A stretch of 45,596 nt of DNA from Eubacterium sp. GTDB taxonomy: Bacteria; Bacillota; Clostridia; Oscillospirales; Ruminococcaceae. Made by a program: the position numbers and the translations under genes. Positions 6,227 to 44,011 of the stretch are shown here, one piece after another (position 1 is the stretch's first letter; the number at the start of each line of letters is the position of its first letter). The notes beneath the pieces are model-generated. The model had not been told where the DNA came from. It was given only the letters and a program-made list of their open reading frames with translations, and did no database searches. The stretch is taken from positions 1 through 45,596 of the forward strand of contig JAISVH010000048.1 in the NCBI GenBank assembly GCA_031271685.1, read 5' to 3'.

Positions 6227-6253
6227 TTAGCACTCAAAGCCAAAGAGTGCTAA
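6227..6253 (+). promoter_or_regulatory. CIRCE operator (HrcA binding site)
   Basis: TTAGCACTC, nine bases, GAGTGCTAA: an exact match to the CIRCE consensus. HrcA, encoded just downstream, binds this inverted repeat and represses the chaperone operon until heat shock; GroE normally helps HrcA fold. Confidence 0.97.
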
Positions 6254-6315
6254 CACTCAAAAGGCGCAAGTGCTATTTTGTCATTTTTATTATTTTACCG
6301 GGAGGAGTGTTTTTC

Positions 6316-7374
6316 ATGGAGCGTATATATAAGGTGCTTGACGCTATAGTTGACGAGTATATACGAACCGGCGAACCGGTAGGCTCAAAAGCGCTTCAAG
6401 AAAAAATTGACGTTAAAGTATCTTCGGCAACCATAAGAAACGACATGGCATCGCTTGAGGCATTGGGTTTTTTAGACCATCCGCACACCTCGGCAGGCAG
6501 GATCCCGACTATACGCGGTTATAAGCTTTATATTGAGCGAATACGGGAAAAAGAGGCCATATCAACAGGTGAAAAAGAAAAAATAGACGAATTTTTTAAG
6601 GGGATTTCGGATGAAAGCGACGGAGCGGTAATTGAAAACGCTTCGAAGGCCCTTTCTGAAATCACAAAATGCGCTATAGTTTCAACAAACATGATAAGTA
6701 AGTTTTCAATAATCACAAAGGTTAATATAATTCCGACCGGCAAGCGAATGTATGTTCTGCTGCTGATCACCTCATCGGGAGATATTAAAAATAGGGTTTG
6801 CCGCCTTTCATTCGACCTGACTGACGATGAAATGGATTTTTTTATAAAGTTCATCAACCAAAACCTTGAGGGGCTTAACGCCGACAATTTAAGCGAAGAA
6901 TTTATTGAAAAACTGACCGCTTCTTTAGGAAGCTATATGCTGTCACTCTCCCCTCTTTTAAAGGCGGTAACCGAGCTTTCGCTTGAAATGAGGAAAAAAC
7001 AAGTGCTTTTAGAGGGCGAGACAAAGCTTATCGCTAGCAACGAGCTTGAAAAAGACGAGATAATAGCCCTTATCGAAAGCAAAAACCAACTTACGGAATT
7101 ACTGGACGCGGCTTTTTCGGGGATAAACGTTATTTTCGGAAAGGAAACAGATACTTTTGTGGTGCAAAACGCGGGAATGATAACCGGAGGCTTTCAAAAA
7201 GACCACAAACCCGCGGGGAGTTTTGGGGTTATCGGGCCAATGAGGCTTGATTATAAAAGGATAATACCTTATATAGAATATTTCAGCGAGAAAGTGACAA
7301 ATATACTTTCTTCCAAAGCAGAGGAGGATCCAGTCACAATCGAGAAGGAGGAAAAAGGCATTGATGAAAAATAG
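6316..7374 (+). CDS. hrcA: Heat-inducible transcription repressor HrcA
   Basis: 352 residues. An N-terminal winged helix (about 1-70: YKVLDAIVDEYIRTGEPVGSKAL, then SSATIRNDMASLEALGFL and HTSAGRIPT) binds DNA; a GAF-like dimerisation domain follows, with the family's GPMRLDYKR-like segment near the end. I place the start at the ATG at 6316 behind GGGAGGAG; the reading frame is open for 23 further codons, but those cross the CIRCE operator and have no ribosome site. It is the first gene of hrcA-grpE-dnaK-dnaJ and is autoregulated through CIRCE. Its last codons overlap the start of grpE. Confidence 0.96.
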   Translation: MERIYKVLDAIVDEYIRTGEPVGSKALQEKIDVKVSSATIRNDMASLEALGFLDHPHTSAGRIPTIRGYKLYIERIREKEAISTGEKEKIDEFFKGISDESDGAVIENASKALSEITKCAIVSTNMISKFSIITKVNIIPTGKRMYVLLLITSSGDIKNRVCRLSFDLTDDEMDFFIKFINQNLEGLNADNLSEEFIEKLTASLGSYMLSLSPLLKAVTELSLEMRKKQVLLEGETKLIASNELEKDEIIALIESKNQLTELLDAAFSGINVIFGKETDTFVVQNAGMITGGFQKDHKPAGSFGVIGPMRLDYKRIIPYIEYFSEKVTNILSSKAEEDPVTIEKEEKGIDEK

Positions 7375-7942
7375 CCAAAGCGAAACGGCGGAGCAAGCGA
7401 AAGCAGAAGAAAATCAAACGGAAGAGTCTGTCATCACTAAAAAAGAAACAGAAGAAATCCCCGGGAAAAATGAACGCGTAACAGAAGAAATAAAAATAGA
7501 AGAACAGGAGAAAGACCCAAAAGAAGCAGAAATTGAAAAGCTTAACGACCGCCTTTTAAGGCAAGCGGCGGAATACGATAACTACCGAAAACGCACAGCA
7601 AAAGAACGCGTGGAGCTTGAATCCGAAATTACCGGCAAAATAATATCTAAGCTTTTGTCGGTGTTGGACAACTTAGACCGGGCTATCTCTTTTGAATGCT
7701 CTGACGGAGCTTTTAAAAAAGGCGTTGAGTTAATAAATGAGAGCTTTCTGTCAACGCTTGCCGAGCTTGGCGTGGAAGAAATAAGGGCCTTGGGTGAAGA
7801 TTTCGACCCGAATCTGCATCAAGCGGTCGGACAGGTAGAAAATCCTGATTTTGAAAGCGGCCAAGTTGCGGAAGTATTTCAAAAAGGGTATAAAATAGGC
7901 GAAAAGGTAATTCGATTCGCAATGGTAAGCGTAGTTAGTTAA
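7364..7942 (+). CDS. grpE: Nucleotide exchange factor GrpE
   Basis: 192 residues. GrpE speeds ADP release from DnaK. The first 55 residues are Glu/Lys-rich and probably disordered, then comes the long dimeric coiled coil containing RQAAEYDNYRKRTAKE, and then the small beta domain ending GEKVIRFAMVSVV. The ATG at 7364 lies inside the end of hrcA, so translation is coupled; AAGGAGG is 12 bases upstream. A TTG at 7361 would sit closer to that site and adds a single Met. Second gene of the chaperone operon. Confidence 0.95.
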   Translation: MKNSQSETAEQAKAEENQTEESVITKKETEEIPGKNERVTEEIKIEEQEKDPKEAEIEKLNDRLLRQAAEYDNYRKRTAKERVELESEITGKIISKLLSVLDNLDRAISFECSDGAFKKGVELINESFLSTLAELGVEEIRALGEDFDPNLHQAVGQVENPDFESGQVAEVFQKGYKIGEKVIRFAMVSVVS

Positions 7943-8062
7943 TTGACCATGAACAACTATTGCGGCCGCTTTGCAGGCAGACTATAGCGGTTTAACTAAT
8001 AAACAATAAAAAGTCTAACTGCTATAATTGTCAGTTGAAAATATGAAAGGAGATAAAAAAAC

Positions 8063-9889
8063 ATGGCAAAAATTATAGGAATAGATTTAGGAACGACTAA
8101 TTCGTGTGTCAGCGTTATTGAAGGCGGTGAAGCGACCGTCATCACCAACAGCGAAGGAAACAGAACCACCCCTTCAGTGGTAGCTTTTACGAGAGATGGA
8201 GAGCGTTTGGTTGGCCAGCTTGCTAAAAACCAGTCGGTAACCAACCCGGATAATACCGTTATGTCAATAAAAAGACATATGGGAAGCGACCACAAAGAAG
8301 AGCTAAACGGTAAAAAATTTACGCCGCAGGAAATTTCGGCAATGATTTTGCAAAAGCTTAAGAGCGATGCCGAAAGCTATCTCGGCGAAAAGGTTTACAG
8401 TGCGGTAATTACCGTTCCCGCCTATTTCACCGACTCGCAGAGACAGGCGACAAAAGACGCCGGGCAAATTGCCGGGCTAAAGGTAGAGCGTATTATAAAC
8501 GAGCCTACCGCGGCGGCCCTGGCATATGGAATAGATAAGGAAAACGAACAGAAAATTTTAGTATATGATTTAGGCGGCGGCACATTCGACGTATCTATCA
8601 TTGAAATAGGAGACGGCGTTCAGGAAGTTTTGGCGACCGCCGGAAACAACCATTTAGGAGGCGACGACTTCGACCAAAGAGTAATCGACTTCCTCATAAC
8701 AGAATTCAAAAAATCAGACGGGGTAGACTTATCAAAAGATAAATTTGCGTTGCAACGCCTTAAAGACGAGGCGGAAAAGGCAAAAATCGCTCTTTCAGGC
8801 TCGACTTCGGTCAATGTGAATATCCCTTATATCACAGCCGACGCAAGCGGGCCCAAGCATATGAATCTGTCACTAACAAGGGCAAAATTCAACGAGCTGA
8901 CCGCGGACCTTATTGAAGCCACCATGAGCCCGTTAAAACAGGCGCTGTCCGACTCAGGTCTCAAAGCATCAGAAATAGATAAAGTATTGTTGGTGGGCGG
9001 CTCCACCAGAATCCCGGCAGTTCAGGACGGCGTTAAAAATTATATTGGAAAAGACCCATTCAAAGGAATCAACCCCGATGAATGCGTAGCGATGGGCGCG
9101 GCAATACAGGGCGGCGTTTTGAATAAAGAAATCACCGATATTTTGCTGCTAGACGTTACCCCTCTGTCATTGGGGATAGAGACCGCAGGCGGAGTATGCA
9201 CCCGTATGATAGAGCGCAACACCACTATTCCAACATCAAAATCTCAAATTTTCTCGACTTATTCGGATAATCAGCCCAGTGTTGACATAAATATCCTTCA
9301 AGGCGAGCGTGATTTTGCGGCGGACAACAAATCTTTGGGCTTGTTTAGACTGGACGGTATTGCCCCGGCGCCAAGAGGTATTCCCCAAATCGAGGTAACT
9401 TTTGACATAGACCGCAACGGTATCGTCAGCGTCACCGCCAAAGATTTAGGAACCGGAAAGTCGCAGAACATTTCTATTACTTCGTCAACAAACATGTCAA
9501 AAGAGGATATCGACAAAGCTGTAAAAGAGGCCGAAGCGTTTGCCGAAGCTGACAAAAAGCGCAAAAACGAGGTAGACGCTCGCAACGAAGCGGAGCAGTT
9601 AGTGTATCAGATAGAAAAATCAATAACTGATTTCGGAGATAAATTCACCGAAGACGATAAAACCAAAGTCAATCCAAAATTAGACGCACTTAAGGAATCT
9701 CTTAAAGGGACGGATATCGAAAAAATTAAATCCGATAGAGAAACGCTTCAAAAAGAATTTTATGAAGTGGCGGGGCGGATTTATCAGGCGCAAGGTGCGC
9801 ATCAGTCTGAAGTAGTGAATGACGGCGCGGAAAACGTTTCGGATTCGTCAGCCGGCGACAACGTGGTAGACGCTGATTTTAAAGAGTAG
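8063..9889 (+). CDS. dnaK: Molecular chaperone DnaK (Hsp70)
   Basis: 608 residues, normal for clostridial DnaK. The ATPase domain (1-about 360) begins [13 protein letters not shown] and contains [13 protein letters not shown] and [11 protein letters not shown]. The interdomain linker is near [13 protein letters not shown], followed by the substrate-binding beta domain and helical lid. The C-terminus [10 protein letters not shown] is the typical acidic tail. AAAGGAG precedes the ATG. The 120 bp spacer after grpE carries an imperfect TATAGCGGTT/AACTGCTATA inverted repeat (about 7982-8031) related to the dispersed hairpins; I see no clear separate promoter. Expression should follow the CIRCE promoter. 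Confidence 0.98.
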
Positions 9890-9902
9890 TATTTAAAGTT
9901 TT

Positions 9903-9945
9903 TATAGCATTTTGATAAAATATTTACGTTTTTAAGTATGTTATA
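9903..9945. repeat. Family D hairpin, copy 2
   Basis: TATAGCATTTTGATAAAA, then TTTACGTTTTT and a return arm GTTATA. It closely resembles the hairpins at 19553-19594 and 37447-37489, and runs directly into an inverted family A element. Confidence 0.5.
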
Positions 9946-10033
9946 ACCGCATTTATGTCCCCGCCTCTTAGGCGGCGGGTTCCATGCTGACGCTTGTTAA
10001 AACACTGGAAGCGGCTATGCCGCAGATGTTTGA
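9941..10033 (-). repeat. Family A palindromic repeat, inverted copy
   Basis: Reads TTATAACCGCATTTATGTCC, CCGCCTCTTAGGCGG, TGACGCTTGTTAAAACACTG, then GCGGC and CGCAGATGTTTGA: the reverse complement of the family A order. It lies within the dnaK-dnaJ spacer, inside the operon's transcript. Confidence 0.8.
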
Positions 10034-10043
10034 AAAGAAGTCC

Positions 10044-10074
10044 TCGAGAACGCCGATATCATCGGCGTTCTCGA
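10044..10074. repeat. Perfect 14-bp inverted repeat between dnaK and dnaJ
   Basis: TCGAGAACGCCGAT, loop ATC, ATCGGCGTTCTCGA. No T-run follows, so it is not a typical intrinsic terminator. It lies 57 bp before the dnaJ ATG, followed by a second near-palindrome (GCAAACCGC/GCGGTGTGC). It may act as an mRNA stabiliser or processing site between dnaK and dnaJ. Confidence 0.7.
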
Positions 10075-10131
10075 AAGCCGCCTCTCGCAAACCGCGCGGT
10101 GTGCGGCGATGGCATATAGGGGGCTACCTAA

Positions 10132-11304
10132 ATGGCAGATAAGAGAGATTATTACGAAGTTTTGGGGCTGAAGAAAGGCGCGAGCGAAGACGAAATAAAA
10201 AAAGCATACCGCAAGCTTGCGAAGCAGCACCATCCTGATTTAAATCAAAACGATCCAAAAGCCGAAGAGAAATTTAAGGAGATCAACGAAGCAAACGACG
10301 TGCTTTCAGACCCTTCGAAACGCCAACGTTACGACCAGTTCGGCCACGCCGGGATTGACCCCAGTTATGGCGGAGGGGGCGGATTCGGCGGGTTTAGCGG
10401 AGGATTCGGCGGGTTTGGCGGATTCGGCGGAGAAGGTATCGATTTAGGCGACATATTCGATTCAATTTTCGGATCGGGGGGGATGGGAAGCGCGCGTTCA
10501 TCGGCGGGTGCGGCAAACTCACCTCGCCGCGGCTCGGATATAGCGGTGGGACTCGATATAAGCTTTATGGAAGCCTGCAAAGGAGTTTCACACGAAATCG
10601 ATATTAACCGCGCCGAAACCTGCGATACCTGTAACGGAAATGGCGCCAGACCGGGAACCTCTCCCAAAACCTGTCCGGAATGCAGCGGAGCCGGTAAGGT
10701 TAGAATCCAGCAAAGGACTATTTTAGGCACGATGTCTTCTGCACAAACCTGCACAAAATGCCAGGGAAAGGGAAAAATAATCGAAACTCCCTGCACCACC
10801 TGCAATGGTGCGGGCCGAGTGCAAAAGCGCAAGAAAGTGTTTGTCGAAGTCCCCGCCGGCATAGACGATGGGCAAATCCTAGCAGTGCGCGGCGAAGGAA
10901 ACATCGGCGTTAACGGCGGAGCGAAGGGAGACCTTAACGTGCGTATCATGGTGCGAAAGGATCCGTTCTTCGAACGTAGAGGCTTTGATATACATTGCGA
11001 CGTCCCGGTTTCGTTCGCTCAAGCGGCGTTAGGCTCTGAAATAGAAGTACCCACCATTGACGGTAATATAAAACTGTCCGTTCCGGAAGGCACGCAGCCC
11101 GAAACGGTGCTGCGTCTCCGCTCTAAAGGAGTAAAGCGCTTACAGCGCGAAGGACGCGGAGACCAGTTCGTAAGAATTATAGTTGAAGTTCCGCGAAATC
11201 TTAACAAAAAGCAAAAAGAACTTTTTATGCAGCTTGAAAGCGAGCTTAATGATAAAAATTTTGAAAAACGAAAAAGTTTTTTTGAAAAGCTAAGAAAAAA
11301 GTAA
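10132..11304 (+). CDS. dnaJ: Co-chaperone DnaJ (Hsp40)
   Basis: 390 residues. The J domain (1-70) contains the HPD motif (HHPDLNQ) that triggers DnaK ATP hydrolysis. A Gly/Phe-rich linker follows (about 78-120). Four zinc-binding repeats come next: [24 protein letters not shown] and CTTCNGAG. The C-terminal substrate-binding domains end in a Lys-rich tail. This is a complete type I DnaJ. The ribosome site AGGGGGC is off-consensus and lies about 9 bases from the ATG, so its translation may be weaker than that of dnaK. The spacer from dnaK is 242 bp and packed with hairpins. Confidence 0.97.
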
Positions 11305-11316
11305 TAAAGAAATTTA

Positions 11317-11351
11317 TTCAAACATCTGCGGCGTAGCCGCAGATGTTTGAA
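11317..11351. repeat. Family A left-end palindrome (perfect hairpin)
   Basis: TTCAAACATCTGCGGC, loop GTA, then the exact complement: a 16-bp perfect inverted repeat made of two facing copies of the family A left end. It lies 13 bp past the dnaJ stop. No T-run follows, but it could stabilise the 3' end of the chaperone mRNA. Confidence 0.8.
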
Positions 11352-11429
11352 CGTTAATCGCTGCTATTTAAAAAAATTATTTTTTACAATTTTGGAATAG
11401 ATTATAAAGTTATAATATGGCAATAAAAC

Positions 11430-28715: not shown

Positions 28716-29342
28716 TTAGCTAAAATCAAAAAAACGTTCGCCGGTTTTTTGTATTACTACGCTTCCGTTGGTTACATCAATAAGTCTGGCCGATAACTCT
28801 GCGGACAAAGACTCTTTAACATACAAAAAAATATCAATCTTATCTGAAAATTGCTCAGATTCTAAACGCACACAAAATCCGGGGTCGTTCAACACGCCAC
28901 CAATAAGTCCGTATAACGGATAAGCAGCCTCAATGTGCAACCGAGACGCAAGTGCCATAAGCTTTACTTTAGCCGCCGCAACCGCTATTGCGGCGCCATG
29001 TGAATAAGCGCGAGCCAACCCGGCCGCGCCGAGCAATATCCCTCCGTAATAACGAGTGACCACTATAGCGGCATCAACAATCCCTGTCTTTACGAGTACC
29101 TCGTGAATAGGAACCCCAGCGGTGCCTCCTGGTTCTCCGTCGTCAGAATGCCGTGCCGTATTGTTATTGCGCAGAATATATGCGTAACAGTTATGGGCAG
29201 CCTTGCGATGATCGGCCTTCACCCCATTTATAAAGTCGGTTGCCTGCTCATCGGTTTCCGCTGGGGCAACAACACCGATAAATTCAGATTTTTTAACGAT
29301 AAAACGCGATTCGGCACGACTTTCAACAGTTTTGTATTCCAT
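28716..29342 (-). CDS. yigZ: YigZ/IMPACT-family protein
   Basis: 208 residues. The IMPACT (UPF0029) N-terminal domain has KKSEFIGVVAPAETDEQA, HNCYAYILR, SDDGEPGGTAGVP and VVTRYYGGILLGAAGLARAY, all hallmark segments. A C-terminal DUF1949-like ferredoxin fold follows (about 140-208). Relatives interact with translation elongation or proline-peptidase systems, but the bacterial role is not settled. It ends 53 bp before the dgt ATG on the same strand, so the two may be cotranscribed. The start is the first ATG; no strong SD is obvious (ACTTAAAAGGTG lies upstream). Confidence 0.92.
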   Translation of the reverse strand: MEYKTVESRAESRFIVKKSEFIGVVAPAETDEQATDFINGVKADHRKAAHNCYAYILRNNNTARHSDDGEPGGTAGVPIHEVLVKTGIVDAAIVVTRYYGGILLGAAGLARAYSHGAAIAVAAAKVKLMALASRLHIEAAYPLYGLIGGVLNDPGFCVRLESEQFSDKIDIFLYVKESLSAELSARLIDVTNGSVVIQKTGERFFDFS

Positions 29343-29364
29343 TTTACACCTTTTAAGTACAACA

Positions 29365-29386
29365 AAGCCGCCTTTTACGGCGGCTT
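29365..29386 (-). terminator. Terminator hairpin after rpmE
   Basis: AAGCCGCC and GGCGGCTT with a 6-base loop. On the minus strand a TTTGTTGTACTT tract follows. It lies between rpmE and yigZ. Confidence 0.7.
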
Positions 29387-29411
29387 ATGCGCTAAATAAA
29401 ATTGCCATTAG

Positions 29412-29618
29412 TTATTTTTGAGTTATATTATACTTTTTGTTAAACTTGGACACGCGCCCACCGGAATCGACCAGTTTTTGTTTTCCGGTAAAAAACGGAT
29501 GACATTTCGAGCAGATTTCAACACGAATATCGCTTTTAGTGGAGCGAGTCTCGATTATTTCACCGCAAGCGCACTTAATTGTAGTATTTTCATATTTTGG
29601 ATGGATTCCCTCTTTCAT
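29412..29618 (-). CDS. rpmE: 50S ribosomal protein L31, zinc-binding form
   Basis: 68 residues. [33 protein letters not shown] and [11 protein letters not shown] are L31 signatures. The cysteines (CAC ... CSKC) show the zinc-containing C+ type, which organisms often pair with a zinc-free paralogue used in zinc starvation. The ATG is preceded by a short AAGG-type site in GGCGGTGACTGC; no strong SD is visible. It lies between rpmB and a terminator. Confidence 0.96.
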
Positions 29619-29720
29619 GCAGTCACCGCCTTAATAAAATATTGTAGAGTTAAACGGGGCGCAACCCGCCAAACATAATTTAAAAAAGTAATAATTCAAA
29701 AAGTTATGCGTTTATGCGGA

Positions 29721-30023
29721 TTATTCCACCGCTTCAGCCATTCCCGCGCCTTCATCGATTTCAAACGCGTTAGCGGCAATTTCTCCCGCCGCTATCTCAT
29801 TTGCCATTATCACCACATCCTCAACTTTCGGGGAGCGGATATTGCGCTCGACTTTGGCGGATCGCAGACAGCGGGTGCACGCATGAACGCGGCACGGGGT
29901 TCCGTTTACGATTGCCTTAACTTTTTGAACGTTTGGCTTAAAGCTCCTGTTAGTGCGCCTATGCGAGTGAGAAAGCTTTATTCCGAAAGTGACGCCCTTT
30001 CCGCAGATATCACATTTTGCCAT
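29721..30023 (-). CDS. rpmB: 50S ribosomal protein L28 with C-terminal extension
   Basis: 100 residues against about 62 in the usual family. Residues 1-65 are canonical L28: MAKCDICGKGVTFG, LSHSHRRTNRSFKPNVQKVK and VHACTRCLRSAKV, with four zinc-type cysteines (C4, C7 and CTRC). Residues about 66-100 form an Ala/Glu-rich acidic tail not found in standard L28. A consensus promoter (TTGACA-17-TATAAT) and AAAGGAGGTG give strong expression. The tail is in frame and uninterrupted, so it is not an obvious frameshift product. Confidence 0.95.
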   Translation of the reverse strand: MAKCDICGKGVTFGIKLSHSHRRTNRSFKPNVQKVKAIVNGTPCRVHACTRCLRSAKVERNIRSPKVEDVVIMANEIAAGEIAANAFEIDEGAGMAEAVE

Positions 30024-30069
30024 AGGGATACACCTCCTTTTTTCTGATAATTTGTAAAGATACTTTAAT

Positions 30070-30098
30070 ATTATATCAAATTTTTAAAAACTTGTCAA
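30070..30098 (-). promoter_or_regulatory. Consensus promoter of rpmB
   Basis: Minus strand TTGACA (30093-30098), exactly 17 bases, TATAAT (30070-30075): a perfect sigma-A promoter. Confidence 0.92.
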
Positions 30099-30145
30099 TA
30101 CTTAATATAAATTTAGTTTAATATATATGTTTTAACAAATTTCTA

Positions 30146-30174
30146 TTGACCTTTTATCCATAAACTGGTAAAAT
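30146..30174 (+). promoter_or_regulatory. Promoter of the acyl ligase-ACP-GNAT-M20 cluster
   Basis: TTGACC (30146-30151), 17-base spacer, TAAAAT (30169-30174). No other convincing promoter is seen before the later genes of the cluster. Confidence 0.75.
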
Positions 30175-30182
30175 AATAAATA

Positions 30183-30214
30183 TAATCGCGTTTATGTCCG
30201 CCGCAGATGTTTAA
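30183..30214 (-). repeat. Family A repeat, collapsed copy
   Basis: TATAATCGCGTTTATGTCCG followed at once by CCGCAGATGTTTAAA: the two ends of the inverted family A element with the middle missing. It forms most of the 5' leader of the acyl-ligase mRNA. Confidence 0.65.
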
Positions 30215-30235
30215 ATCGAAGGGAGCATGCAAAGC

Positions 30236-31822
30236 ATGGCTTTTAACACGTTAAAAGGATTGTTGGAAAAAATAAAGGAATACGGAGAAACACCGGCATT
30301 CAGGCTTAAATCCGGCAAAAACACAACAATTGACATTAGCTATAGCCGATTTTATGACGAAGCGTCGGCTCTTGGCGCGGCGCTTTTAAAACTTGGGCTT
30401 AAGGGAAAACATGTCGCCATATTAAGCGGAAACCGATATGAATGGATAGTAAGTTATCTCGCTATTGCCGCAGGAACAGGCGTAGTCGTTCCAATTGACC
30501 GAGATTTGCCCGATGAGGCAATCATATATCTGCTGAAAGCAGGGGATGTGAGCGCCGTATTATATTCCGACGCTTACGATGAGCTCATCAAAAATGCCGA
30601 TTTGCCCTGCCTTGAATACTGCATATGTTTTGATGGAGAAGGAGATGAAAACCATAAGTTTTTGTTTTATCAGAAAATCCTAGAAACCGGGCAAACGATT
30701 TTAAAATCCTGTGACAATTATTATGATGAAATTAAAATATCCGAAACCGACACTGCCGCGATTTTATTTACTTCGGGGACGACCGGATTTTTAAAGGGTG
30801 TCGTGCTCACTCAAAAAAATATTGTGAGCAACCTTAAAAATGCCACCTGCTTTGAACCTTATAGAGAAAGAGAAATAATGTTTTCGATATTGCCGTATCA
30901 CCACGCTTTCGAGTGCACCGTCGGTCTGCTGGCCTCGCTAGCCAATAGGGCGACTATTTGTATTAACGACAGCCTTAAATATTTGGCACAAAATTTTCTG
31001 CTGTTTAAGCCTACCGGAATGTTTTTGGTTCCCGCAGTAATATATGCGATGTATAAAAGGATAACGGACGCTGAAAAAAAGCTTGGACGACCGCTTACTC
31101 CCGAAGAAGGCAAGGGTGTTTTCGGCGGGCGTCTAACCCGTATATTCAGCGGCAGCGCCCCGCTAAATCCCGAAATGATACTGCTGTTAAAAACCTATGG
31201 AATTTCTCTTTGTCAGGGATATGGACTCACTGAAACTTCTCCCGTAGTCACCAGCTTTAAGTATGATCTGCTGGATGAAAAAAACATTGCCAGTGTGGGA
31301 CAAGCCATTGTCGGCTGCGAGGTCAAGATATCAGACGGCGAGATTTGGGTAAAAGGCGATAACGTTATGGCCGGATACTATAAAAACCCTGAAGCTGACT
31401 CCGAGTCCTTTGAAGGCGAATGGTTCAAAACCGGGGATTTGGGATATATTGATATAGACGGCTTTGTCTATGTAAACGGACGCAAAAAAAACGTTATAAT
31501 CGCAAGCGGGGGCGAAAATGTATATCCTGAGGAAATAGAACAGTTTTTGTTGGGTATCCCCATGTTCTCCGACTCGCTTGTTTACGGAGGCGACAACGGC
31601 GCAAACGACACCGTTACAGCAGTTATATTCCCAAATTACGAGCTGCTTGAGGGGAAAAGCGAAAGCGAAATATCAGCGGCGGTGAATGCGGAAATTGACG
31701 CGCTTAATGATAAACTTCCAATATACAAGCAGATACTGGCGGTAAAAATCAGAAAAACGCCATTTGAAAAAACTACCTCTAATAAAATAAAAAGAAACGC
31801 GGAAAACATAAAGGCCATATAG
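30236..31822 (+). CDS. AMP-forming acyl-CoA/acyl-ACP synthetase
   Basis: 528 residues of the adenylate-forming ANL superfamily. The P-loop-like A3 motif is FTSGTTGFLKG near 178, A5 is YGLTETSP near 327, A7 is FKTGDLGYIDIDGFVYVNGRKKNVII near 400 and the A10 lysine lies in KTTSNKIKRN at the C-terminus. It would activate a carboxylic acid, probably a fatty acid, as acyl-AMP and pass it to a thiol. The next gene encodes an acyl carrier protein, so an acyl-ACP product is likely. I prefer the ATG at 30236, 10 bases after GAAGGGAG; an ATG at 30227 is too close to that site. First gene of a four-gene cluster. Confidence 0.9.
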   Translation: MAFNTLKGLLEKIKEYGETPAFRLKSGKNTTIDISYSRFYDEASALGAALLKLGLKGKHVAILSGNRYEWIVSYLAIAAGTGVVVPIDRDLPDEAIIYLLKAGDVSAVLYSDAYDELIKNADLPCLEYCICFDGEGDENHKFLFYQKILETGQTILKSCDNYYDEIKISETDTAAILFTSGTTGFLKGVVLTQKNIVSNLKNATCFEPYREREIMFSILPYHHAFECTVGLLASLANRATICINDSLKYLAQNFLLFKPTGMFLVPAVIYAMYKRITDAEKKLGRPLTPEEGKGVFGGRLTRIFSGSAPLNPEMILLLKTYGISLCQGYGLTETSPVVTSFKYDLLDEKNIASVGQAIVGCEVKISDGEIWVKGDNVMAGYYKNPEADSESFEGEWFKTGDLGYIDIDGFVYVNGRKKNVIIASGGENVYPEEIEQFLLGIPMFSDSLVYGGDNGANDTVTAVIFPNYELLEGKSESEISAAVNAEIDALNDKLPIYKQILAVKIRKTPFEKTTSNKIKRNAENIKAI

Positions 31823-31835
31823 GAGGAGCGCGTAA

Positions 31836-32057
31836 ATGTTTGAAAAAGTAGTTGAAATAATAAGCAATTATACGGACGTTCCCAAAAAAGAAATAACCGA
31901 AAACACCAATATGTTGACAGATTTGGGGCTTCAATCGATAGATTTTATCGACATGATCTGCGATTTTGAGGAGGAGTTCGGCAAAGTGGTTCCCGAAAGG
32001 GATTTCAGAAAACTGACCACCGTAAGAAAGATAATTGACTATATCGAAGGGAAATGA
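31836..32057 (+). CDS. Discrete acyl carrier protein
   Basis: 73 residues. The phosphopantetheine attachment serine is S34 in DLGLQSIDF, compared with DSL in the fatty-acid ACP; the four-helix ACP layout and acidic helix II (DMICDFEEEFG) are present. TAGGAGGAG overlaps the stop of the ligase gene, so the genes are coupled. The LQS variant and the genetic context suggest a dedicated carrier for the pathway here rather than the general fatty-acid ACP. No phosphopantetheinyl transferase is in the window. Confidence 0.92.
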   Translation: MFEKVVEIISNYTDVPKKEITENTNMLTDLGLQSIDFIDMICDFEEEFGKVVPERDFRKLTTVRKIIDYIEGK

Positions 32058-32184
32058 CATTGGCGCGCCATGCTATAACCGCGTTTAAATTAGAAAATAT
32101 CAAGGGAAACACCGCACAAGAATAATTTTCGCATATTTCACAAATTGTATTTTTTCAGAACCACGAAAGGTTAAGCGTGTCATA
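32058..32184 (+). other. Spacer within the acyl cluster with repeat fragments
   Basis: Contains a family A right-end scrap GCTATAACCGCGTTTAAAT near 32072-32090 and a GAAACACCGCACAA scrap of family B near 32105. No promoter or terminator is clear, so read-through from ACP to the next gene is likely. Confidence 0.4.
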
Positions 32185-34521
32185 ATGCGTATATTGAAAG
32201 AATATTCGGCCTTATCGCAAAACGCTGTTTTAAGTGAGCAAAACAGCGTTGAGCTTTTGCTTTTACCCGAAAAAAGCGACGCTGCGCTTAAGTATATTTT
32301 AGATACGACAGACGCTACCGCGATCAGCCATAAAACCCTTGAACCACTTAAAGTGGCCGTACAGGATGTTTTCGGAATATTGGCAGAAAATGCCGGTGTT
32401 GGCGAAACGGTTAAAATCGCCTGCTCTTATCATAAATATTATTATATGGTCGTTTTTGAATTTTCAGAGGCGGCTTTGCCTCTCCATACACTTAATAAGT
32501 CGGTAAAGGTTTTAGGATTCGAAAAAGGCAAGCGTGAAGATGAAATAGGATTTATGAACGCCGTGCATTTGGTAAACCGGATCTCTCTTTCGGTGGACAA
32601 AATTACCGAAAAAATGCGTATTACTATTATAAAAGAAAAAAATTATTCTCGTCCGAAACTCAAAGACGGTATTGAACAACTTTCTCTTCCTCCGTTTGAG
32701 CTTTGCGGTTATGGCGACAGCTCTGATTTGGCGGCGAATTTTTCTGAAAAGATCTATTGCCAGTTCGGCGACAGCGCCGACAAATTTTTGATAACTCCCG
32801 AACTGTTTATTGATAATCTTGAAGCCTGTGAGCTATCGGCAATTTTTTTGCGCGATAAAAGCGGCCTTTGCGCGGGAGGAGCGGTTTGGCATGAAACCCA
32901 TGGAATTATAGTTTTGATGATTTTTTCGATATTTGTTGAGGGATCGAATATCATAAGCGCAAAAAATTTGTTGCTAGACGGATTTAAAGCCGCCGTTTCC
33001 TCATCTTCCGCCGGATTTATAGTCGCAAAAAAAATACACAGCGAAAGACTTGCAGACTATTTTGATTCCTGCGATGATATGTACCGCTATAAACCTACCG
33101 GCGTGGAGATACGGCAAAGGCAAACCTCTTATATCAAACCCGATTTGATGCCGCTTATTAAAAAAGCATATAAAAACTTTGAGGTAACCCGAAATATACA
33201 CGAAGTTAACTACATCCACCGCTTTTACGAGCCTTATTCCGTTATAAGCGCGGTGATAGATACGCAAGGATCTGAAGCTCTTCTTTCGGTGCTTTGGTTT
33301 GGCGACGATTTAAAGGCAAATATTATACGGCATGTTATAGCATTAAATAAAATAGGAATAGAAAAAATATATTTCAGGCTTGATTTAGGCTCTCCCGAAG
33401 AGGCGGCGGTATCCGGCCTTATAAGTTCATGTGGGTTTGAGGCTCAGTATCTTTGGCCTTACAGCGGAGACAAAGGCGACATCGTTGTCTTTACTTACTC
33501 TGAAAATATGGTATATGAGCTAAAACCCTGTAAAATCTCACCTATAAATAAAGATAACATTAATAAAACCCCGCAGTTGGTTACAAAAGTATATGACAAC
33601 AAATATCCATCACAATATCTTTATGAGCCGCAAATGTTATGGGATAAAATACGAAAGAGACAAATATATCCCTTTATCGCTATTGATGATGATCAAAACG
33701 CGGTCGGCATGATTTCGTTTATTAAGCTGGAAAGTAACCCATACTTATTTGAGATAGGGCAGCTTATGGTAGATCCCTCTCACAGAGGAACCAATATCGC
33801 AAGCCAACTTATTGAATATATTCATGATTCGGCTATTCAAAATCTTGATTTTGACGCCGTATTGTCTGAGAGTGTGACCAATCACAAATTCTCTCAGCGC
33901 TCCTGTATCAGCAGCGGATTTTGTGATACAGCCCTTAAGCTAAACATCATGTCCGGGACGGCTTTTGCGTTGGAAGAACAGCGGAGGCGGATTGTAAGGA
34001 TGAGCTGCGTCGTCTCCTGCATAGAGCGCGCAGACGAAACTTTTACCGTTTACCTGCCTAAAATATATGCGAAACAGATAAAATACTGCTTTTTAGGACT
34101 TAAGCCGCGCAAATATGAAGACGCTTTAACCGACGACGCGCCCGAAGAAGGCGGTATAACTGAATATCACATAGACGAGGGCGAAACGGCCGTCTCAAAA
34201 CTTTTAAATATAACGATATTTAAAATTGGTTCAGATATTGAATCCGCTATTGAACGCTGCGAAAAATTCGCTGTTTCAAAAGAAATAAAGTGCCTGCTCA
34301 TTAATATCCCATTGAGTGACCCGCATAATTATGCCGCCGTTAATGCACTTAAAACGCGAAGTTTTTTCTTCGGCGGAGTTATTCCTTATTGGCTGCCGGA
34401 GTCGGATGCTCTGCTAATGCAAAAGCTTTATGATAATGAGCCTGATTGGGACTCAATAAAACTCTTCAGCAAAAAGATAAAAGAAATTGCAATAATGATA
34501 AGAAACGAGATAAAAAGTTAG
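32185..34521 (+). CDS. 778-aa GNAT acetyltransferase fusion with regulatory-ATPase-like N-terminus
   Basis: A large multi-domain protein I cannot match to a named family. Residues about 20-150 (LKVAVQDVFGILAENAGVGETVKIAC, then YYYMVVFEF) resemble the RsbW-type HATPase fold, but no clear Bergerat residues beyond the NA pair are visible. Residues about 155-470 look like two GNAT-like or beta-rich units of unclear identity. A recognisable GNAT domain lies at about 480-610: EIGQLMVDPSHRGTNIASQLI carries the acyl-CoA binding R/G-x-x-G/A loop near 528-540. The last 150 residues are unassigned. In context it could transfer the ACP-bound acyl group to an amine. The ribosome site is weak (AAAGG 16 bases upstream). 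It is soluble, with no signal peptide. It ends 2 bp before the M20 gene. Confidence 0.7.
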   Translation: MRILKEYSALSQNAVLSEQNSVELLLLPEKSDAALKYILDTTDATAISHKTLEPLKVAVQDVFGILAENAGVGETVKIACSYHKYYYMVVFEFSEAALPLHTLNKSVKVLGFEKGKREDEIGFMNAVHLVNRISLSVDKITEKMRITIIKEKNYSRPKLKDGIEQLSLPPFELCGYGDSSDLAANFSEKIYCQFGDSADKFLITPELFIDNLEACELSAIFLRDKSGLCAGGAVWHETHGIIVLMIFSIFVEGSNIISAKNLLLDGFKAAVSSSSAGFIVAKKIHSERLADYFDSCDDMYRYKPTGVEIRQRQTSYIKPDLMPLIKKAYKNFEVTRNIHEVNYIHRFYEPYSVISAVIDTQGSEALLSVLWFGDDLKANIIRHVIALNKIGIEKIYFRLDLGSPEEAAVSGLISSCGFEAQYLWPYSGDKGDIVVFTYSENMVYELKPCKISPINKDNINKTPQLVTKVYDNKYPSQYLYEPQMLWDKIRKRQIYPFIAIDDDQNAVGMISFIKLESNPYLFEIGQLMVDPSHRGTNIASQLIEYIHDSAIQNLDFDAVLSESVTNHKFSQRSCISSGFCDTALKLNIMSGTAFALEEQRRRIVRMSCVVSCIERADETFTVYLPKIYAKQIKYCFLGLKPRKYEDALTDDAPEEGGITEYHIDEGETAVSKLLNITIFKIGSDIESAIERCEKFAVSKEIKCLLINIPLSDPHNYAAVNALKTRSFFFGGVIPYWLPESDALLMQKLYDNEPDWDSIKLFSKKIKEIAIMIRNEIKS

Positions 34522-34523
34522 CC

Positions 34524-35843
34524 ATGCTTTCTAGGCAAATAAAAATAAAAAAACAGCGAGCTCTCGAAAATTTCAGCAGGATGATACAGTGTTCTACAGT
34601 AGATGGTTGTGAAGACGAATTTATCCGGTTCCGAAATACTCTATCCGAGCTTTATCCCAATATAGAAAAAATATGTGAACGCGAGTTTTTTGGAAAAGGG
34701 ATAGTATATCGTTGGAAAGGAATGAATTCAAATAAAAGCATCATCTTAATGTCTCATTATGATGTCGTCCCTGCGAAAAGCGGCGAATGGACATACGAGC
34801 CTTTTTCCGGCACAATTGCCAACGGCCGCGTTTGGGGCCGCGGGGCGTTGGACACTAAATGCACCCTTGCCGCTATAATGGAAAGCGTTGAGTCTCTTAT
34901 TCAATTGCAATTTATTCCAAAAACCGACATATATTTATGTTTTGGCGGCGATGAGGAAACCACCGGTGAGAGCGCCCGCCAAATTGCGAAAGCACTTAAC
35001 TCCAGAGGGGTTAGACCCTTTTTAATTTTAGATGAAGGCGGCGCCATAGTAGACGCAAATCCTTATGGAATATCAAAGCCCTGCGCTTTGGTAGGCATTG
35101 CGGAAAAAGGCTATATGGACGTTGAATTTATTATAAGAGGCAAGGGAGGGCATACTTCACTGCCCTCTGTATTTTGCCCTTTGAGCGAGATGGGCGAACT
35201 GATACGCAGAATTAGCAAGAATCCTTTTGGATTCAAGCTTTGCAAACCAGTCAGCGTTATGATAAAACATGCCCTAAAATACATGAATTTTAAACACCGC
35301 GCGTTAATACGCGCCTATAGCTTTTGGGGACGCTGGTTTTTTAAACGTCTTGTCGCTGAAAAATTTCCGGAAATTAAAGCGCTTTCCGGCACTATAGGCG
35401 CTATAACCCAAATAAACGGCGGAACTGCCGCAAACGTTATCCCCGAACAAGTAAGGGCGACAGGAAACTTTAGGCTAATCTCGGGTGAAAGCGTGGAATA
35501 TACTTTAAACAGAATAAAAAAATCGCTAAAGGGGTTGTCTGTAGAAATAAACTTGATAGAAGGACTGGACCCGTCAAAAGCTTCCCCCACGGAAGGCGAA
35601 GGTTGGGACGCTCTTAAAAACGCCATAACCTCCTCGTGGGGAGAGAGCGCGATCGTGCCGTATCTCATGCTGGCCGGCAGCGATTCGAGGTATTACAGTC
35701 TTTTATCAGACAGTATTTATCGGTTTTCTCCCTGCGCTTTCACAAGGACGGACCTGGAGAGTATACACGGCGTAAACGAAAGTATTGATATTGATAGTTT
35801 TTTCAGGACTATTTATTTTTATATCAATTTGATTGTTGGCTGA
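34524..35843 (+). CDS. M20-family metallopeptidase, CPS1/PM20D1-like
   Basis: 439 residues from the ATG at 34524, which lies 2 bases after the upstream stop; the longer open frame would overlap the GNAT gene. The di-zinc site is complete: H78 and D80 in SHYDVVP, bridging D110 in GRGALD, base E144 and ligand E145 in DEE, an acidic ligand pair in DEGG (D170/E171) and H415 in SIHGVNE. A dimerisation domain is inserted after about 195. The segments SHYDVVP, GRGALDTK and DEETTG closely follow yeast CPS1 and mammalian PM20D1, which cleave (and for PM20D1 also form) N-acyl amino acids. It has no signal peptide. I infer it acts on the N-acyl product of this cluster; a plain dipeptidase is the alternative. 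Confidence 0.85.
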   Translation: MLSRQIKIKKQRALENFSRMIQCSTVDGCEDEFIRFRNTLSELYPNIEKICEREFFGKGIVYRWKGMNSNKSIILMSHYDVVPAKSGEWTYEPFSGTIANGRVWGRGALDTKCTLAAIMESVESLIQLQFIPKTDIYLCFGGDEETTGESARQIAKALNSRGVRPFLILDEGGAIVDANPYGISKPCALVGIAEKGYMDVEFIIRGKGGHTSLPSVFCPLSEMGELIRRISKNPFGFKLCKPVSVMIKHALKYMNFKHRALIRAYSFWGRWFFKRLVAEKFPEIKALSGTIGAITQINGGTAANVIPEQVRATGNFRLISGESVEYTLNRIKKSLKGLSVEINLIEGLDPSKASPTEGEGWDALKNAITSSWGESAIVPYLMLAGSDSRYYSLLSDSIYRFSPCAFTRTDLESIHGVNESIDIDSFFRTIYFYINLIVG

Positions 35844-35853
35844 AGAAAACTGA

Positions 35854-35883
35854 TTGACTTTAAGCCGTCTCATATGATATACT
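35854..35883 (+). promoter_or_regulatory. Promoter of the candidate small RNA
   Basis: TTGACT (35854-35859), 18-base spacer, TGATATACT with an extended -10 (TATACT at 35878-35883). No ORF follows for about 1 kb on this strand. Confidence 0.65.
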
Positions 35884-35889
35884 ATTTCT

Positions 35890-36013
35890 TTAAGCGGAAA
35901 CGGGTTTTTTAGTCCTCTGTCGGTTACAAGAGCCAGGGGCTGCTGCAGATAAAGGAAAATAGTTTATTTACTATAAATCATAATCGGCATTGAGCATACA
36001 ATGCCGATTTTTT
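35890..36013 (+). ncRNA. Candidate small RNA, about 124 nt, unknown class
   Basis: A promoter with an extended -10 sits just upstream and a strong terminator ends the unit, with no ORF or ribosome site between. The body contains AGTCCT pairing with GGGGCT (with G-U pairs) around TGTCGGTTACAAGAGCCA, then an A/T-rich single-stranded stretch. It lacks the SRP RNA GGAA-tetraloop motif, and its length is short for 6S RNA. It lies between the M20 gene and smpB. The unit could instead be a transcribed remnant or an attenuated leader. Confidence 0.45.
35982..36013 (+). terminator. Rho-independent terminator of the candidate small RNA
   Basis: AATCGGCATTG, 6-base loop AGCATA, CAATGCCGATT, then a T-run. 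The T-run merges into the left end of a family A repeat. Confidence 0.88.
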
Positions 36014-36166
36014 CAAACGTCTGAAGATGAGCCGTTTCCGGTGTTTTATCGCTGGTCAGATTAAAAACGCTAAATGCGTTTTTAAAACACGATGTGCTTG
36101 TATTGCGGGCGTTGTTCGCAAACAGCCAATCCTCGTTAAAGATGCGGAGTACATGAACGCGGTTCT
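36012..36166 (+). repeat. Family A repeat, degenerate long form
   Basis: TTCAAACGTCTGAAGATGAG, CCGTTTCCGGTGTTTTATCG, an AAAAACGC/GCGTTTTT hairpin, GCGTTGTTCGCAAACAGCC, and ACATGAACGCGGTTCT. Ends are conserved, the middle differs. Confidence 0.7.
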
Positions 36167-36644
36167 ATTGGAATTTTGGTTTAATTTTGTTAACCATTTT
36201 AATATTCAAGTAGAATGAATTTATTTCTTATATTATAATAAAAATAACACAATATATATTGGTATCTTTATATATACACAACAATTATATTTATATTATA
36301 ATTATTTATTTTATATAGCCTATAAATAAATTAAATTGACTTTAATTTTTAAAAAACAAATATTTTTAACAAAACTATTTTCTATTAAAATTTATCAAAT
36401 AATTGTGTTAAAGTTACATTATTTTACAAATAAGCCAATGCTAATAAAAATCAAAGCCTATCAATAATATGATCATATTTAATTTATTGTGATAAAGTTA
36501 GTTTTTTCGAGCTAAATCGTCATCTTTCCCCATGGTTATCGAATGTTTATTATATTATTATTTATGTGACGGTTTTGTGAAAAACAAAATGTATTTATTT
36601 TTTATAAAAAAAATAATAATATATCATCATTTTTATTAAATTTT
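36167..36644. other. AT-rich gene-free stretch
   Basis: Almost 480 bp of strongly A+T-rich DNA with no ORF, terminator or familiar RNA. Several TTTATT/AATAAA runs occur. I see no DnaA-box cluster or iteron pattern, so no origin is called. Confidence 0.5.
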
Positions 36645-36709
36645 TTCAAACATCTGCTAAGGAGCCGCTTCCAGTGTTTTAACAAGCGGCGGAGGATATG
36701 AACGCAGCT
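36645..36709 (+). repeat. Family A repeat, short form
   Basis: TTCAAACATCTGCTAAGGAG, CCGCTTCCAGTGTTTTAACA, AGCGGCGGAGG, ATATGAACGCAG: both ends with the middle shortened. Confidence 0.75.
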
Positions 36710-36758
36710 TTTTCTGTTTTTCGCTTGCTAAATTCATGACAAAGATGTATAATATTTA

Positions 36759-36925
36759 TTAAGTAAACACCGCACAACTCTTGCGCACAAATCACTTGAG
36801 TATTTTTTGCCAAACTTCATTAATTTTGCCTTAAATATCAACGGATATTCGCGGCAAAATTGCCTAGTTTTACGAAAAATCCGGCTGCGTGCTTTGCACA
36901 CCAGAGCTGTGCGGTGTTTACTTAA
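36759..36925. repeat. Family B element, complete copy with terminal inverted repeats
   Basis: 167 bp. TTAAGTAAACACCGCACAAC on the left faces GAGCTGTGCGGTGTTTACTTAA on the right: about 22 bp of near-perfect terminal inverted repeat. The core contains TAAATATCAACGGATATTCG and inverted arms of GGCAAAATT, shared with the copies near 37571 and 44235. It carries no ORF of its own, so it looks like a non-autonomous, MITE-like element. It ends 43 bp before smpB. Confidence 0.8.
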
Positions 36926-36968
36926 GAGTTTTAAAAATAAGATTAAAGATATATATGAAAGGCAAAAA

Positions 36969-37430
36969 ATGTCAAATACTATAAAACGTATTGCTGAAAA
37001 CCGCGCAGCTCGCCACGAATATTTTATACTTGAAAGATACGAAGCGGGTATCGAGCTTTTCGGCACAGAAGTAAAATCTATCCGCAAGGGAAGTGTTAAT
37101 TTAAAAGACGCATGGATAGGGGTAGAGAAAGGCGAAGCTTTCGTTAATCAAATGCATGTTTCGCCATATGAACAGGGAAATATTTTTAACCGAGATCCTC
37201 TTAGAAAGAGAAAGCTGCTGCTTCACAAAAAAGAAATCCTGAACCTGTATTCAGAGGTTAAAAAAGGAGGATTGACCCTTATTCCTTTGCAGCTTTACTT
37301 TAAGGGAAGCCGGGTTAAAGTGGAAATCGGTCTTTGCAAGGGAAAGCAGCAGCATGACAAGCGAAAATCTATCGCAGACAGAGAATCAAAGAGGACTTTG
37401 GATAGAGCGATGAAAGAAAGGAACATGTAA
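36969..37430 (+). CDS. smpB: SsrA-binding protein SmpB
   Basis: 153 residues, the usual SmpB size. [44 protein letters not shown], then [23 protein letters not shown] and the lysine-rich C-terminal tail [19 protein letters not shown] are diagnostic. It binds tmRNA for trans-translation rescue of stalled ribosomes. The ATG at 36969 follows GAAAGGCAAAAA; the frame is open 54 codons upstream, but that part is the family B repeat, not coding. No ssrA (tmRNA) gene was found in this window. A terminator follows. Confidence 0.97.
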
Positions 37431-42616: not shown

Positions 42617-44011
42617 TTACGCTTCCGTGATCCATGCGGCTTCATCTTGAAGCGAACGCGAAACATAAAGCGCTATCGCACATTCTATGCGCTTTTTCAT
42701 AAGCTCGCATGAAAGCTTATGAGGGATTTTAATGTCGCCGCAATAAATAAATGACGTTGCGTTGCATCCACCGCTGCAATAAAATCTCGCCCAACATTCG
42801 ACACACCCGTCTTTACTGTATATATGAGTGTTTTGAAGCCGCTTTTTTATTTTGGGATCAAGACGACAGTCACTTTTTATATTGCCCATTTTCCATTGAT
42901 CAATACCCACAAATTGATGACAGGGATAAATATCGCCTTTGGGAGTAACAGCCGCGTATTCGCTGCCGTTCCCACATCCGCGCAGTCTTTTTATAACGCA
43001 TGGACCCTGCTTCAGGTCTATATTAAAATGGAAAAAATTAAAACCGTACCTAGATTTCTTCATAATATTATAAAGACGGTCATATTCGTCTTTTATACGA
43101 GGAATATCCTTTTCGGTTATCGCAAACGGCAATTTTTCGTTGACTATTACAGGTTCAAGCGAGATTTCTTTAAAGCCCGCATCATTAATAGCCAAGATAT
43201 CCTTGCAAAAATCAAGGTTATTCTTTGTGTAAGTGCCTCTTATGTAATATTCGGTTCGGCCGGGCTTTTTTCTGTTCTCAACAAGCTTTTTATATTTAGG
43301 CTCAATAAGATCATAACTGCCGCCGCCGCTTATAGTCTTTCTCATGAGATCGTTTACTTTTTGTCTTCCGTCCATTGATAGCACGACATTAGTCATTTCG
43401 TTATTTATATATTCAATTTTTTTGTCGTCTAACAACAATCCGTTCGTAGTGATGGTAAAGCTAAACCTTTTTCCGCTTTTCCCCTCAAGTCCTCGAGCAT
43501 ATTCAACGGCAGCCGTAACGGTGTCCCACGCCATAAGTGGCTCTCCGCCAAAAAAATCGATTTCAAGCAATTCGCGCGAACCCGAATTTTCAACCAAAAA
43601 ATCTATAGCTTTTTTCGCGGTTTCGGGTTCCATAACCGAACGCTCGCCGCCAAAGTCTCCGGTGCCGGCAAAGCAGTATTCACACTTTAGGTTGCAATCA
43701 TGCGCAACATGCAGACAGAGCGCCTTAAGCGGAACATCCGGATCCGCTTTAGCATAGCGCTCATAGTCATCGTCTGCAAACAGTGCTCCCTCAAGAAAAA
43801 GCTGATAAATTTCGTTATAACAATCTTTTATTTCAAGCCGGCCAAAGTCAGGAAAAAGCTTAAATATACTATCCGGGCAGGTATCAGAAAGAGGTAATGA
43901 CAGATAATCTATCATCTCAAAAGTCAACTTATCCGCCAAATGTATCCCTCCGGAATTTATATCAAGGAGAATATTATTATCGTCATAGACAAATTTATGG
44001 ATATTCCGCAA
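42617..44011 (-). CDS. scfB: Radical SAM SCIFF-peptide maturase (thioether cross-linking)
   Basis: 464 residues. The radical SAM cluster is C106, C110, C113 in CNLKCEYC, followed by DFFGGEPLMAW. An N-terminal RRE-like domain (1-90, with VYDDNNILLDINSGGIHL) would bind the precursor. A C-terminal SPASM region with CGNG, YPCHQF, CVECWARFYCSGGCN and C in LSCELM holds auxiliary clusters. This matches the SCIFF maturase family, which makes Cys-to-alpha-carbon thioether links in the adjacent six-cysteine peptide. The TTG at 44011 follows AAAGGAGAT by about 10 bases; no ATG is available near the conserved start. The peptide gene lies 39 bp upstream on the same strand. Confidence 0.95.
   Translation of the reverse strand: MRNIHKFVYDDNNILLDINSGGIHLADKLTFEMIDYLSLPLSDTCPDSIFKLFPDFGRLEIKDCYNEIYQLFLEGALFADDDYERYAKADPDVPLKALCLHVAHDCNLKCEYCFAGTGDFGGERSVMEPETAKKAIDFLVENSGSRELLEIDFFGGEPLMAWDTVTAAVEYARGLEGKSGKRFSFTITTNGLLLDDKKIEYINNEMTNVVLSMDGRQKVNDLMRKTISGGGSYDLIEPKYKKLVENRKKPGRTEYYIRGTYTKNNLDFCKDILAINDAGFKEISLEPVIVNEKLPFAITEKDIPRIKDEYDRLYNIMKKSRYGFNFFHFNIDLKQGPCVIKRLRGCGNGSEYAAVTPKGDIYPCHQFVGIDQWKMGNIKSDCRLDPKIKKRLQNTHIYSKDGCVECWARFYCSGGCNATSFIYCGDIKIPHKLSCELMKKRIECAIALYVSRSLQDEAAWITEA

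Follow-up and report, generated by a model that had tools for sequence, protein, structure and literature searches.

What could be made by four adjacent genes that encode an adenylate-forming ligase, a discrete acyl carrier protein (ACP), a protein with a GNAT domain and an M20 metallohydrolase? The question arises from a contig of Eubacterium sp. (Ruminococcaceae; GenBank assembly GCA_031271685.1, contig JAISVH010000048.1), whose full length of 45,596 nucleotides is here called the window. An earlier reading of the window, the original prediction, proposed that this gene cluster, or cassette, makes or recycles an N-acylated amine or amino acid, with the acyl group carried on its own ACP. The co-orientation and order that it gave for the four genes were confirmed, as were the gaps of 13, 127 and 2 bp that separate, in turn, the ligase, ACP, GNAT protein and M20 genes:

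30236..31822, + strand: ANL adenylate-forming ligase, 528 aa (PF00501, PF23562)
31836..32057, + strand: discrete acyl carrier protein, 73 aa (PF00550, S34 in LQS)
32185..34521, + strand: 778-aa GNAT protein (Pfam GNAT matches, hhalign, split homologues)
34524..35843, + strand: M20 metallohydrolase, PRK08262-like, without membrane anchor, 439 aa from ATG (PF01546, PF07687)

On balance, we lean towards reading the cassette as a small pathway for acyl-ACP-dependent N-acyl transfer, paired with an amidohydrolase. The observations that carry this reading are the gene content and order of the cassette, its recurrence, the fusion of ACP to GNAT in one relative, the lack of a condensation-domain match in the genomes searched for one, and an M20 enzyme that lacks the membrane anchor of its relatives.

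Recurrence of the cassette

With the 778-aa protein as query, a scan of the GTDB contig collection found a single relative, 72% identical in its best segment, at a locus designated L005. This locus carries a ligase, an ACP, a 791-aa GNAT protein and an M20 enzyme in the same order as in the window, and its source is a metagenome-assembled genome, Oscillospiraceae bacterium isolate Th196P3bin43, which we take to be of termite-gut origin. The L005 flanks, named by eye as chemotaxis-like genes upstream and leucine-biosynthesis-like genes downstream, differ from those of the window, so the cassette behaves as a unit. Pairwise comparison of the two loci gave nonsynonymous divergence (dN) of 0.12-0.33 and saturated or nearly saturated synonymous change, as would be expected under purifying selection; the GNAT protein, 72% and 76% identical in its two halves, has changed less than the ligase (60%).

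A whole-genome search of 396 genomes of the window's family revealed one other carrier, G326, in which the ligase is followed by a 417-aa open reading frame (ORF) and then by the M20 gene; with the longest ORFs, the junctions are an overlap of 4 bp and a gap of 1 bp. The 417-aa ORF consists of an ACP followed by a C-terminal GNAT unit. This fusion is our best evidence that the GNAT receives acyl groups bound to ACP.

For genome counts, the GNAT query was a three-row profile of the C-terminal GNAT unit. With the window's own genome counted, it matched 7 of 396 family, 6 of 394 order and 5 of 398 phylum genomes; these samples are nested within one collection, so the counts overlap and are not additive. 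The four phylum genomes other than our own led to loci L068-L073, discussed below, and the family and order matches beyond our own genome and G326 were weak partial GNAT matches. Weak matches (G106, G299, G313, G293, G769, G819, G081, G141, G975, G988 and G1085), with E values from 3e-10 to 9e-4 and each covering part of the query, were excluded from the cassette count. In the two such genomes whose surroundings were read, G299 and G313, the neighbourhood held no ligase, ACP or M20 match. None of the 13 listed congeners matched the profile.

The cassette is rare. Homologues of its ligase and M20 enzyme occur elsewhere in the family without it. In neither of the two close relatives found, L005 and G326, do the genes lie in unrelated places: L005 keeps the order, and G326 keeps ligase, ACP-GNAT fusion and M20. 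Judged by this shared arrangement, the four-gene recurrence is more than chance, and the functional linkage that had been proposed for the four genes is strengthened.

The enzymes and their relatives

The ligase carries an AMP-binding domain (PF00501, 222 bits against a cut-off of 29.9; PF23562, 27.1 bits) together with the motifs A3 (FTSGTTGFLK at 178), A5 (GYGLTE at 328) and A7 (FKTGDL at 397), which places it in the ANL superfamily, and the ACP matches PF00550 (PP-binding, 47.1 bits, cut-off 20.8) with its phosphopantetheine serine at S34 in LQS. Both proteins are thus as first described. The nearest NCBIfam model of the ligase is PRK06187, a long-chain-fatty-acid--CoA ligase, with a score below the cut-off; this very model is also best for the ligase at locus L042, which adjoins a DHxxxDS condensation domain. 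Non-fatty-acid ANL models match the cassette ligase as well, and in the PDB it comes closest to oxalyl-CoA synthetases. Since the listed NCBIfam matches all fall far below curated cut-offs, they do not reveal the substrate.

The cassette ACP shares 84% identity with its L005 counterpart and 62% with the carrier domain of the G326 fusion. An ACP gene lies within 500 bp on the same strand in 23 of the 30 ligase loci examined (our own and G326 counted), so that ligase-ACP pairing is a general feature of these ligases. Our own genome (G000) encodes further ACPs beside the cassette ACP, and a general need for a carrier therefore does not explain the dedicated one. Each of the two genomes, G000 and G326, has a match to the phosphopantetheinyl transferase family.

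Condensation domains often accompany such pairs in the family. A stand-alone condensation domain adjoins the ACP in 11 of the 17 further ligase loci of a first batch (L040-L054, L057 and L058; the condensation Pfam search was run on L042), with the motif DHxxxDS in 8 of the 11 and HHxxxDS in 3, and an alpha/beta hydrolase match was present in 8 of the 17. Contexts were mixed in a second batch, whose 12 neighbourhoods came from elsewhere in the ligase tree or surrounded other ligase copies; it held a stand-alone condensation match at L091 and a nonribosomal peptide synthetase-like one at L092. The same query found no condensation match in the other 10, two of which, L094 and L100, are incomplete reads (the expected ligase and the expected ACP, respectively, were missing from ORF picking). 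No PF00668 match at E <= 0.001 turned up in G000 (152 contigs, 93% complete) or in G326, which leaves the GNAT as the cassette's only amide-forming candidate besides the M20 enzyme working in reverse. A tree of 31 ligases, in which bootstrap support had not settled (correlation 0.967), placed the ligases of the window, L005 and G326 in one clade (100/100) and 14 others in a second (100/96); the loci of 11 of these 14 include a stand-alone condensation domain.

Three of the ligase neighbourhoods have features of their own. At L041 (genome G284, 5867-11282), an alpha/beta hydrolase, a condensation domain, an ACP and a ligase of the fatty-acid amide (FAA) type are followed 69 bp on by an amide hydrolase of the choloylglycine-hydrolase family, which gives one case outside the cassette of amide-cleaving and amide-making enzymes side by side. 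At L096 (G288, 6781-10663, minus strand), a ligase and an ACP lie with a 362-aa GNAT and an Acetyltransf_6 protein, without a condensation match, and several radical-SAM-like ORFs, named by eye, come after this cluster. At L099 (G279, 7689-11420, minus strand), a GNAT, a ligase, an ACP and a radical SAM enzyme stand in a row.

The third cassette protein belongs to the GNAT superfamily (PF00583, Acetyltransf_1, 34.6 bits, cut-off 20.7), as originally described, and Pfam finds a single GNAT domain at about residues 478-580 of the 778. Its layout turned out to be more complex than one domain, with a degenerate RsbW-like region (about 25-158), a degenerate tandem-GNAT unit (178-441) and a second tandem-GNAT unit (about 464-774). 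By profile comparison, the unit at 178-441 is a homologue of the C-terminal one (hhalign E 7.6e-10, probability 96.5%), and residues 25-158 resemble RsbW-like HATPase domains (hhalign E 1e-5, probability 82%); residues 1-172 had no Pfam match, including none to HATPase_c_2, so the likeness to RsbW-type anti-sigma kinases is remote. The G326 version has only the C-terminal GNAT unit, without the RsbW-like and first GNAT-like units.

Relatives of this protein lie outside the cassette. In L068 (9393-13428), and likewise in L069 and L070, an RsbW-like/GNAT protein and a second GNAT protein are separate genes (436-442 aa and 331-339 aa) that flank an aminotransferase gene, HisC-like in L068. Since the halves are separate there, the window protein looks like a two-partner fusion; G326 has the C-terminal partner only, joined to the ACP. 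By eye, ORFs resembling xanthine dehydrogenase adjoin the L068-type loci, and L068 also has a STAS-like ORF as a neighbour; these surroundings suggest a partner-switching link for this GNAT family. Single proteins in which an RsbW-like domain is fused to tandem GNAT occur in L071 (8932-10410), L072 (9387-10895) and L073 (8501-10045); the RsbW-like call rests on HATPase_c_2 for L071, which retains PF13581 (HATPase_c_2) at 8.3e-25, and on alignment for L072 and L073. Within 19.5 kb around each GNAT relative in L068-L073, no ligase, ACP or M20 match was found.

The canonical pyrophosphate loop of acyl-CoA-dependent GNATs is R/Q-x-x-G-x-G/A. The three cassette GNATs depart from it, with RGTNIA, RGTNIA and RGTDVA. 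The fourth loop residue is thus N or D in all three, and it is G in five and S in one of six non-cassette relatives. This substitution would suit a donor other than CoA, and we give it little weight.

The M20 enzyme matches Peptidase_M20 (PF01546, 95.5 bits, cut-off 24.6) and PF07687, and H78, D80, D110, E144, E145, D170 and H415, which we take to be metal ligands or catalytic residues, are invariant in all three cassette enzymes, in line with the original assignment of an M20 enzyme with all its metal ligands. In NCBIfam it matches three PRK08262 models best, at 240-249 bits, well under their cut-offs of 503-825; we assume the PRK08262 group to be close to PM20D1. PDB relatives include peptidases. 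Homologues at E <= 1e-30 occur in 68 of 297 family genomes (our own and G326 counted), with 28-41% identity among the listed matches other than those two. Using the maximum mean hydropathy over 19 residues, we found a strong hydrophobic segment N-terminal to the catalytic domain in all ten of the nearest non-cassette enzymes (L105-L114; 2.23-3.29). The first 60 residues of the cassette enzymes reach maxima of -0.11, 0.69 and 1.17, with no strong segment, and no secretion or membrane signal was found on them. Because the N-terminal hydrophobic segment of the relatives is missing, we read the cassette M20 as a probable shift from a membrane-anchored to a cytosolic enzyme.

Surroundings of the cassette

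Two candidate signals border the cassette:

30146..30174, + strand: promoter-like TTGACC-17-TAAAAT 5' of the ligase gene (consensus scan, 10/12 matches)
35982..36009, + strand: inverted repeat followed by a T run, a possible cassette terminator (read from the sequence; the scan listed the opposite strand only)

The promoter that had been proposed for the cassette is present as a site, and its value as evidence does not hold up: the consensus scan gave 34 promoter-like sites in 29300-37000 against 21.0 (sd 4.5) in shuffles, and with so many matches in the region the site is no evidence by itself. A perfect consensus promoter, TTGACA-17-TATAAT with TG, lies at 30070-30098 on the minus strand, facing an L28-like ORF and back to back with the weaker promoter-like site of the cassette. 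The ligase gene has a second in-frame ATG at 30227, and an alternative TTG start of the M20 gene at 34446 would make it overlap the GNAT-protein gene.

Upstream, the neighbouring gene is a divergent ORF for an L28-like ribosomal protein, and downstream a SmpB-like ORF starts about 1 kb past the cassette (both named by eye); by these names, the flanking genes look unrelated to it. An origin as foreign DNA was rejected as far as composition goes, the four genes having a G+C content of 0.37-0.44 against 0.42 for the window, with no anomaly. No tRNA or tmRNA was found beside the cassette in the window. Farther away, at 42617-44011 on the minus strand, lies a radical-SAM-like protein with a Cys-rich C-terminus that by eye resembles a SPASM-type peptide maturase.

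The proposed pathway, its precedents and its rivals

In the pathway that we favour, the ligase would use ATP to adenylate a carboxylic acid, most probably a fatty acid of medium or long chain, and load it on the dedicated holo-ACP. The C-terminal GNAT unit would accept the acyl group from the ACP rather than from acyl-CoA and join it to the amino group of a small amine such as an amino acid. By hydrolysing or re-equilibrating the N-acyl amide, the cytosolic M20 enzyme would then set its level, and the N-terminal RsbW-like and first GNAT-like units may form a degenerate accessory or regulatory half. Each catalytic step, the nature of the acyl group and the amine, and the action of the M20 enzyme on the cassette's own product are what we infer from the observations above; the proposal that the cassette makes or recycles an N-acylated amine or amino acid is thus supported in part, through the linkage of its genes in L005 and G326.

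Published systems, taken here from excerpts of the papers cited, provide precedents for parts of this scheme, and they run counter to the original view that no named system has this composition. In Coprococcus eutactus, OaaA loads oleic acid onto OaaACP and OaaC makes oleoyl aminovaleric acid, for which PMC13142362 cites Chang et al. 2021; the condensation enzymes of FAA systems carry a DHxxxDS motif (PMC13142362). The ligase and ACP half of the cassette resembles such a system in having a free-standing adenylating enzyme beside a discrete ACP, in Clostridia, with a probable amide product, and this type accounts for many of the ligase-ACP neighbourhoods of the window's family. By analogy with the FAA ligase-ACP pairs, the idea of an acyl group carried on its own ACP gains support. 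The cassette differs in having a GNAT, ACP-fused in G326, and no condensation-domain match in the cassette or genome, in its additional M20 enzyme, and in ligases that form a separate clade; the likeness was drawn through gene content, not the Oaa sequences. We therefore rejected the cassette as a member of the FAA system, its defining condensation domain not having been found in G000 (at that genome's 93% completeness) or G326.

The ligase-ACP-GNAT combination has its own precedent in the Sbz (SB-203208) pathway, where acyl transfer was reconstituted with SbzL, SbzG or SbzK, and SbzI, and likewise with SbzB and SbzC, where replacing the ACP by CoA gave no product (PMC6331615). There, too, a discrete ACP is charged by an adenylating enzyme and a GNAT moves the acyl group on, a match to the cassette in gene content only. 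The Sbz pathway differs in its host, Streptomyces, and in its acyl groups, which derive from amino acids or sulfamoylacetate, and the excerpts of PMC6331615 mention no M20 enzyme or ACP-GNAT fusion. FeeM is cited as another GNAT that takes acyl groups from ACP (PMC6331615), and N-acyl amino acid synthases use acyl-ACP (PMC8762209). In that reported donor FeeM, a GNAT-related enzyme, is like the enzyme that we propose (PMC6331615, PMC8762209), but the cassette GNAT scores only 13.0 bits to PF21926 against a cut-off of 27, and its assignment as a FeeM-type N-acyl amino acid synthase was rejected on that score. The M20 enzyme shares with PM20D1 and PRK08262 its family, its site residues and its best NCBIfam matches, the PRK08262 models. 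It differs from PM20D1, which is described as extracellular (PMC7145423), in having no secretion or membrane signal found, and from PRK08262 in its low scores. Among open-licence PMC papers, we found none describing this four-gene set, in searches that included clusters of M20, ACP, GNAT and N-acyl functions, and none on RsbW-GNAT fusions. By analogy, then, the cassette would work like an FAA system in which a GNAT does the work of the condensation domain, and like the Sbz steps extended by a hydrolase.

Several points weigh against the proposed N-acyltransferase pathway. An amide synthase and an amide hydrolase in one operon would be futile unless regulated. At 93% completeness and in 152 contigs, our own genome may hold a condensation domain that was missed. 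The surroundings of L068-L073 imply that this GNAT family is not intrinsically ACP-dependent, and the pyrophosphate-loop substitution is weakened as a marker of ACP use by the independent ligase-ACP-GNAT locus L096, which keeps the glycine. A joint clade of cassette and FAA ligases was neither rejected nor established (AU p 0.328), so that sisterhood of the two separately supported clades is not established.

The same genes could instead serve salvage, the M20 enzyme cleaving N-acyl amino acids imported from the gut, the ligase and ACP capturing the acid for lipid metabolism and the GNAT acetylating the amine, or capping it in some other way, with acyl-CoA. We consider this unlikely: the M20 family is indeed common in the bacterial family without the cassette (the 68 of 297 genomes above) and GNATs of this type exist without linked ACP or ligase, but the G326 fusion links the ACP with the GNAT rather than with lipid synthesis, further ACPs are encoded in the genome, and an M20 enzyme without the anchor of its relatives fits an intracellular substrate. 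The recurring ACP-GNAT-M20 linkage and the fusion also disfavour an ordinary fatty-acid salvage ligase. It is rather improbable, in our judgement, that the ligase activates an amino or aryl acid, with the GNAT making a dipeptide-like or aminoacylated molecule and the M20 enzyme acting as a peptidase or deblocking enzyme. Such a scheme has a model in SbzB, SbzG and SbzC (PMC6331615) and accords with the non-fatty-acid ANL and oxalyl-CoA synthetase matches of the ligase and the peptidases among the M20 relatives; the best NCBIfam model, which is best for L042 too, is nevertheless a long-chain-fatty-acid--CoA ligase, at scores far below cut-off.

Very little probability attaches to an N-acyl protecting-group cycle in which the GNAT acylates an amine, an unlinked enzyme modifies the molecule and the M20 enzyme deacylates it. 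M20 deacylases of the ArgE/DapE type act in protecting-group cycles of arginine and lysine synthesis, and an aminotransferase, its HisC-like family shown for L068, stands between the two GNAT genes in L068-L070. None of the three cassettes, however, contains a modifying enzyme, and a ligase with a dedicated ACP would be unusual for a protecting group.

Returning to the acyl-ACP-dependent pathway, a more specific version of it can be offered as a tentative and somewhat doubtful proposal, namely that in some gut-type Clostridia a carrier-tethered GNAT, in G326 a single chain with its ACP, has replaced the condensation domain of an FAA pathway, giving other products such as N-acyl amino acids, that a cytosolic PM20D1-like M20 enzyme of the same operon is the off-switch and that, in the window version, the RsbW-like pseudo-ATPase half senses or gates. 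FAAs from gut Clostridia act on host G-protein-coupled receptors (PMC13142362), and the pairing of an FAA-like activation half with a GNAT suggests a second enzymatic way to lipids of this kind, one that genome mining based on condensation domains would overlook. The ACP-GNAT fusion of G326 is a compact enzyme open to direct testing, and the cassette as a whole gives a bacterial context for a possible pairing of N-acylating enzyme and M20 hydrolase.

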